Position numbers and translations under genes: made by a program. A stretch of 64,000 bases of DNA from contig NZ_JAUXZY010000004.1 in the NCBI RefSeq assembly GCF_030693775.1, positions 1 to 64,000 of the forward strand, written 5' to 3'. Below are positions 60,045-60,685 of the stretch, piece after piece; the first letter of the stretch is position 1, and each line of letters opens with the position of its first letter. The notes under the pieces are model-generated. The model worked only from the letters and a program-made list of their open reading frames with translations. It made no database searches and was not told the origin of the DNA. Source of the DNA: Polynucleobacter sp. (lineage in GTDB: Bacteria > Pseudomonadota > Gammaproteobacteria > Burkholderiales > Burkholderiaceae).

Positions 60045-60099
60045 AAAAGGGCGCCTTTTGTAAATACACAATTCGATAAAAGTACGATAAACTAGTTTT

Positions 60100-60281
60100 A
60101 AGCAGGAGAGTGAGGCCATGCCTCCACCGAAGGCGCAAACTCCCATGAACGCTCAGGTATCCACCCGGAAGGTACTGCTTATCCTAAATAGCCGTCTGGA
60201 GAGTCGCCATTACGTGGCGCACCGAAGGAGCAAATACTAAGCTGGGCTTAGTGTGAATCTCTCAGGTATCAGGGACAGGGG
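60100..60281 (+). ncRNA. Tandem glycine riboswitch (two aptamers)
   Basis: Aptamer 1 GGAGAGT...CACCGAAGGCGCAAAC...CGCTCAGGTATC; aptamer 2 GGAGAGT...CACCGAAGGAGCAAA...ATCTCTCAGGTATCAGGGACAG, close to the gcvT-motif consensus. Confidence 0.93.
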
Positions 60282-60288
60282 GAGCGGC

Positions 60289-60318
60289 AAGCATGCAATC
60301 AGCCTGGCTGATGCATGG
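60289..60318 (+). promoter_or_regulatory. Strong hairpin 3' of glycine riboswitch (candidate expression platform)
   Basis: AAGCATGCAATCAGCC-T-GGCTGATGCATGGC; near-perfect stem without an obvious U-run. Confidence 0.55.
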
Positions 60319-60337
60319 CGCTATTAGGAGCCCCGCA

Positions 60338-60358
60338 ATGACCACTTATTCCAGTTAA
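60338..60358 (+). other. Six-codon ORF (MTTYSS*) with Shine-Dalgarno
   Basis: TTAGGAGCCCCGCAATGACCACTTATTCCAGTTAA. Confidence 0.35.
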
Positions 60359-60431
60359 TTCAGTGCATGTTTTGAGTCTATTGGCCTTTAATCCGGCCGT
60401 CACTGCAACCCACTGAATGAAAGAAATTCCC

Positions 60432-60635
60432 ATGTCGAATCAATATGCGCACGAAGCCCCTTACCACCCCGGTTATGAGGATGCCTCATTTAAAAACGAA
60501 GTATCCCCACAAATTGCAGAGCTAATGGAGTATCGCAAGATGAATGCCCGGCACCTGCAGTTCTCCAATACGATTGTGCAATTCTGTAAGTCTGATTTAA
60601 ATCACCATGCACAGCAAAGGCAGGCAAGAGCCTAA
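60432..60635 (+). CDS. Small protein of unknown function downstream of glycine riboswitch
   Basis: 67 aa MSNQYAHEAPYHPGYEDASFKNEVSPQIAELMEYRKMNARHLQFSNTIVQFCKSDLNHHAQQRQARA; followed by a terminator. Confidence 0.65.
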   Translation: MSNQYAHEAPYHPGYEDASFKNEVSPQIAELMEYRKMNARHLQFSNTIVQFCKSDLNHHAQQRQARA

Positions 60636-60662: not shown

Positions 60663-60685
60663 AAACCACCTGCGGGTGGTTTTTT
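60663..60685 (+). terminator. Intrinsic terminator
   Basis: AAACCACCTGCGGGTGGTTTTTT. Confidence 0.85.

Follow-up and report, generated by a model that had tools for sequence, protein, structure and literature searches.

The window, a 64,000-nucleotide stretch of Polynucleobacter DNA, contains a tandem glycine riboswitch that precedes a six-codon ORF and an ORF for a 67-amino-acid protein, and the question is what such a riboswitch controls. Glycine riboswitches described so far mostly control the degradation or import of glycine. The initial annotation of the locus, which reported a tandem glycine riboswitch with no glycine-cleavage gene, offered two answers: that the riboswitch controls the small protein, or that the RNA has been retained, or has moved, in the absence of its target. 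The source genome is in five contigs, and the assembly of the window is 94.5% complete. gcvP was absent from this genome, and the RF00504 riboswitch was not part of a gcv operon, the next ORFs being the six-codon mini-ORF and the 67-amino-acid ORF. The downstream order was also as first described, with the two ORFs followed by a terminator and then by genes for a MAPEG protein and a methyltransferase. The interval originally given, 60100-60635, captured the feature, but its limits were too narrow: the start of aptamer 1, together with the conserved -10 element before it, fell outside (Table 1).

Both aptamers exceeded the cut-off (gathering score) of Rfam family RF00504, which is 32 bits, in agreement with the initial assignment. 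The match to aptamer 1 was absent from the clan-filtered cmscan table but was still above the cut-off. The aptamer helices have been kept by compensatory changes, with two-sided changes at 11 of 50 consensus pairs among 43 sequences. The predicted riboswitch would be expected to bind glycine and to change expression in response. Other cmscan matches near the locus, to STnc130 and a snoRNA, were below the cut-off and were taken as chance.

Table 1. Features of the glycine riboswitch unit in the window
Feature	Coordinates	Strand	Description or basis
Probable -10 promoter element	60087..60094	+	GATAAACT here, GATATAATTT in most relatives
Glycine aptamer 1	60093..60187	+	RF00504, 48.8 bits
Glycine aptamer 2	60186..60288	+	RF00504, 59.1 bits, E 1.1e-9
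Expression-platform hairpin	60290..60322	+	Minimum free-energy folds
Shine-Dalgarno AGGAG of mini-ORF	60326..60330	+	Purine-rich site, common to 67/68 riboswitch leaders
Six-codon mini-ORF MTTYSS, candidate translational relay	60338..60358	+	Start/stop conservation
Helix, mini-ORF stop to small-ORF start region	60358..60418	+	Arms 60358-60365 and 60411-60418
67-aa small protein ORF	60432..60635	+	Unnamed Polynucleobacter family, motif EAP[YF]HPGYED
Intrinsic terminator of unit	60663..60685	+	AAACCACC-TGCG-GGTGGTTTTTTC, U tail, read directly

The -10 element corresponds to conserved columns 5' of aptamer 1 in the leader alignment, and transcription probably starts from it near position 60100; a generic promoter scan did not detect this element. 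Similarly, a simple terminator scan did not list the hairpin at the end of the unit, and many relatives have, at the matching place, terminator-like hairpins whose sequences differ. The leader is conserved and about 330 nt long, which might be expected if the leader RNA or the mini-peptide were the main product and the small ORF a separate gene with another promoter. However, the only conserved promoter element seen was the one 5' of aptamer 1, and where the riboswitch has been lost, the small ORF is preceded by a new leader in which the Shine-Dalgarno site is strong. Thus, it seems quite improbable that the small ORF stands apart from its leader.

The small-protein family was present in 78 of the 186 Polynucleobacter genomes searched; one genome has two copies, each preceded by a riboswitch. 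At 68 of the 79 loci read, aptamer 2 had an intact end that lay no more than 260 nt 5' of the small ORF, although these genomes and loci are counts of species and not independent events. The remaining loci were one in which the aptamer has decayed (L095), one from which the riboswitch has been lost (L098) and nine in a clade without the riboswitch. The median omega of the small ORF was 0.09 over 302 pairs, indicating strong purifying selection, and this value ruled out the possibility that the ORF is non-coding sequence. Homologues of the 67-amino-acid protein therefore exist, are conserved at the codon level and lie behind tandem riboswitches in dozens of species, as the first of the two proposed answers predicts. 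Control of the small ORF by the riboswitch is thus well supported by these comparisons of sequence, and glycine is very probably the signal.

Proteins of the family are about 60 to 67 amino acids long, and a core consisting of EAP and HPGYED was invariant among 29 aligned members. None of the 29 matched any Pfam or NCBIfam family over the cut-off, and the scores of two candidate identities, MftB2 and Cys_rich_FGFR, were below it. The predicted structure (mean pLDDT, 78.7) has a conserved disordered N terminus and a single long helix, and comparison of the small protein with PDB sequences and PDB folds gave no match. Such a predicted structure would fit a binding role better than an enzymatic one. 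No homologue was found outside Polynucleobacter in 399 genomes of the order. In a scan of genome contigs, the named matches were all Polynucleobacter and the rest were metagenome-assembled genomes labelled Burkholderiaceae or beta-proteobacteria.

The distribution of the family was compared with that of the glycine cleavage system. gcvP was found in 29 of the 186 Polynucleobacter genomes, and none of these 29 encodes the small protein, compared to 12 expected (Fisher p 3e-8, uncorrected for shared descent). All 29 have a glycine riboswitch, and in those examined a tandem riboswitch precedes gcvT-gcvH-gcvP. The only other glycine riboswitch in the genome of the window is also a tandem (contig C1, 428125-428310), and it precedes not gcvT but a gene for a D-amino acid dehydrogenase (L179; C1:426813-428310, minus strand; NF009074, E 2e-215), an enzyme related to glycine oxidase ThiO. 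The dehydrogenase gene was present in 26 of the 186 genomes; the copies examined lie behind a glycine riboswitch, and the enzyme may provide another route of glycine removal. At three further loci (L119, L123 and L124), a tandem glycine riboswitch that is close kin of the one in the window precedes a Rossmann-like, ketopantoate-reductase-like protein of 360 amino acids, for which no family was found in Pfam or NCBIfam at E 1e-5.

In the aptamer tree, the riboswitches of the small-protein class grouped with those of the reductase class, so that their nearest relatives precede this unclassified Rossmann-like protein, and the dehydrogenase and gcvT classes were each separate. The tree gave no support for descent from the gcvT riboswitch of the genus. 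These results bear directly on the second proposed answer, in which the glycine cleavage genes were lost, the RNA was then retained or relocated and the 67-amino-acid ORF is incidental. The missing gcvP would be consistent with such an orphan, as would the decay of riboswitches at other loci in the genus (L095 and L111). However, an orphan reading fails because the neighbour of the riboswitch is coding and conserved, and it is further contradicted by the lineage of the small-protein riboswitches, which is apart from that of the gcvT riboswitches; we regard it as hardly credible. The first alternative of the initial annotation is therefore supported and the second contradicted; the annotation had seen neither the conservation of the six-codon ORF nor the restriction of the unit to genomes without gcvP. 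The protein may have the glycine-linked role that it suggested.

A purine-rich Shine-Dalgarno site followed by a start codon (66 AUG and 1 GUG) was found in 67 of the 68 riboswitch leaders. The mini-ORF that begins there is six codons long in 60 of the 67 leaders, five in 6 and 16 in 1, and its peptides diverge (for example, MTTYSS, MHTLPS, MNTTPS, MQNLCK, MHIQIE and MQNSS). Among 27 close pairs, changes were seen at 1 of 81 start-codon sites and 5 of 81 stop-codon sites, compared to 84 of 399 inner sites. The start, stop and length of the mini-ORF have been kept, but the peptide has not.

The Shine-Dalgarno site of the mini-ORF pairs more strongly with the anti-Shine-Dalgarno sequence than that of the small ORF in 65 of the 67 leaders, with mean 16S rRNA pairing of -7.1 versus -4.0 kcal/mol. 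Orthologues without the riboswitch have no mini-ORF, and their Shine-Dalgarno pairing is -9.3. In one riboswitch-bearing locus (L109), the small ORF lies straight after the riboswitch without a mini-ORF and is itself driven by the riboswitch-proximal site, an arrangement that is possibly an ancestral or reduced form. The riboswitch-proximal Shine-Dalgarno site likewise drives the main ORF directly in the reductase-linked relatives.

It is conceivable that the riboswitch acts on transcription or on the small-ORF start and that the mini-ORF is a by-product of the conserved purine-rich element. The lack of conservation of the peptide, the absence of a mini-ORF from L109 and the four or five U residues that follow the platform hairpin in part of the family are all consistent with this. 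Nevertheless, the start, the stop and a length of five or six codons have been kept while the inner codons diverged, and the clade to which the window belongs has no U tract 3' of the platform hairpin, which argues against transcriptional control there. We therefore consider a by-product unlikely, although deserving of some weight. Attenuators, too, usually take the form of a short ORF placed between the sensor and its gene, and the mini-ORF could in principle be a classical leader peptide, added to the riboswitch, with codons that respond to charged tRNA. The mini-ORFs share no conserved codon type, glycine was found only in MTRYSG and MHSLPG, and there was no consensus terminator/antiterminator pair 3' of the mini-ORF; attenuation of this kind is very improbable.

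We prefer to read the conserved mini-ORF as a translational relay. Minimum free-energy folds of 32 leaders indicated that the platform hairpin reaches the 3' strand of the P1 helix of aptamer 2 in part of the family, and this P1 seldom formed in unconstrained folds (mean probability, 0.05). The downstream hairpin is thus predicted to compete with aptamer-2 P1, which is the usual design of a riboswitch. Folding with the aptamer constraint gave a mean accessibility of 0.32 for the mini-ORF Shine-Dalgarno site, versus 0.25 without it, with accessibility going up in some clades and down in others. The predicted accessibility of this site thus shifts inconsistently and singles out neither a mechanism nor a direction of the switch. 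By analogy with gcvT switches, an ON switch would be more likely.

Sequence at the mini-ORF stop can often form a helix with sequence near the small-ORF start; these arms were paired in 73% of cells, versus 20-50% when slid. Two-sided changes were seen in 22 cells, a number reached by 3 of 500 shuffles, but most of the covariation measures did not exceed the shuffles. The duplex energy was -9.7, compared to -6.4 for shuffled arms and -8.0 for arms swapped between species. Support for the helix is moderate, and the helix is only partly conserved. Global consensus folding of the leader yielded no pairs, a result that probably reflects differences in helix register from clade to clade.

Taken together, the locus is best explained, with reasonable though far from full confidence, as a stand-alone unit of lineages without the glycine cleavage system, in which a tandem glycine riboswitch acts through a mini-ORF relay on a small partner-binding protein. 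When glycine is bound, the aptamer-2 P1 strand would re-pair with respect to the downstream hairpin, and the altered pairing would change the access of ribosomes to the strong Shine-Dalgarno site, at which the six-codon mini-ORF is initiated. The helix would bring the mini-ORF stop near the small-ORF start site, which is the weaker of the two, and ribosomes terminating at the stop could then continue onto the small ORF. The mini-ORF stop and the small-ORF start are 39-108 nt apart, which is long for termination-reinitiation and counts against a relay; on balance, we give the relay about an even chance. The small protein would most likely bind a partner, such as an enzyme of glycine synthesis, import or use, and so contribute to the control of glycine in those Polynucleobacter lineages that lack the glycine cleavage system. 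A partner-binding, perhaps inhibitory, role is a tentative proposal.

The sensor appears to be an ordinary glycine riboswitch, and the regulated unit appears to be new. Like the tandem riboswitches of gcvT operons, it has two short-linked aptamers that exceed the Rfam cut-off and carry compensatory changes. It differs from them in that a small protein of an unknown family lies downstream, in genomes without gcvP, and in that its aptamers form a separate lineage within the genus with a mini-ORF in between.

Two other systems offer closer functional parallels, and the unit works like both but is a member of neither. In cyanobacteria, a glutamine riboswitch controls gifB, which encodes the small glutamine synthetase inactivating factor IF17 (PMC6316151). 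Here too an amino-acid riboswitch precedes a small protein, and the two have been kept together in 68 of 79 loci; by analogy, the Polynucleobacter protein might be a small inhibitor produced when supplies of the amino acid are ample. The ligand and the RNA class are different, a mini-ORF is present here, and no sequence relation to IF17 was found for the 29 family members at Pfam and NCBIfam cut-offs. In Mycobacterium tuberculosis, expression of the B12-riboswitch-linked gene ppe2 needs translation of a uORF that overlaps it at AUGA, and termination-reinitiation was measured (PMC11260477). The likeness is a short ORF with a Shine-Dalgarno site between riboswitch and gene, seen here in 67 of 68 leaders. 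In contrast to ppe2, 39-108 nt separate the two ORFs described here, with at most a helix to link them, and reinitiation would be a prediction.

No paper pairing a glycine riboswitch with Polynucleobacter was found in the literature collection searched, and the unit of riboswitch, mini-ORF and small protein is not described in the portion consulted of a structured-RNA survey that covers Polynucleobacter necessarius. The locus is of interest because an ordinary sensor points to an unannotated family and so provides a functional handle where homology and fold searches fail. A mini-ORF of fixed length and free sequence is also a natural test case for a riboswitch-controlled translational relay over a helix. 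Because the unit and the glycine cleavage system exclude each other, these freshwater bacteria may have another way to cope with excess glycine. In its fullest and rather doubtful form, the proposal would be that a glycine riboswitch acts through a near-minimal ORF of free sequence and a helix relay on a family of inhibitors that stands in for glycine cleavage. If true, the unit would act in streamlined freshwater bacteria as a safety valve for glycine, replacing the glycine cleavage system.

Several loci departed from the common arrangement. The orthologue clade without the riboswitch and mini-ORF (L097, L103-L108, L110 and L112) has a very strong Shine-Dalgarno site and is missing the cysteine near residue 52. 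At L095, aptamer 2 is damaged and the conserved protein motif is altered, and L098 has lost the riboswitch and carries a terminator-like hairpin 5' of the small ORF; both loci are apparently decaying. Assemblies commonly break at rRNA operons, and the window and contig C1 both start within a 16S rRNA gene, which occupies positions 1-323 of the window on the minus strand.
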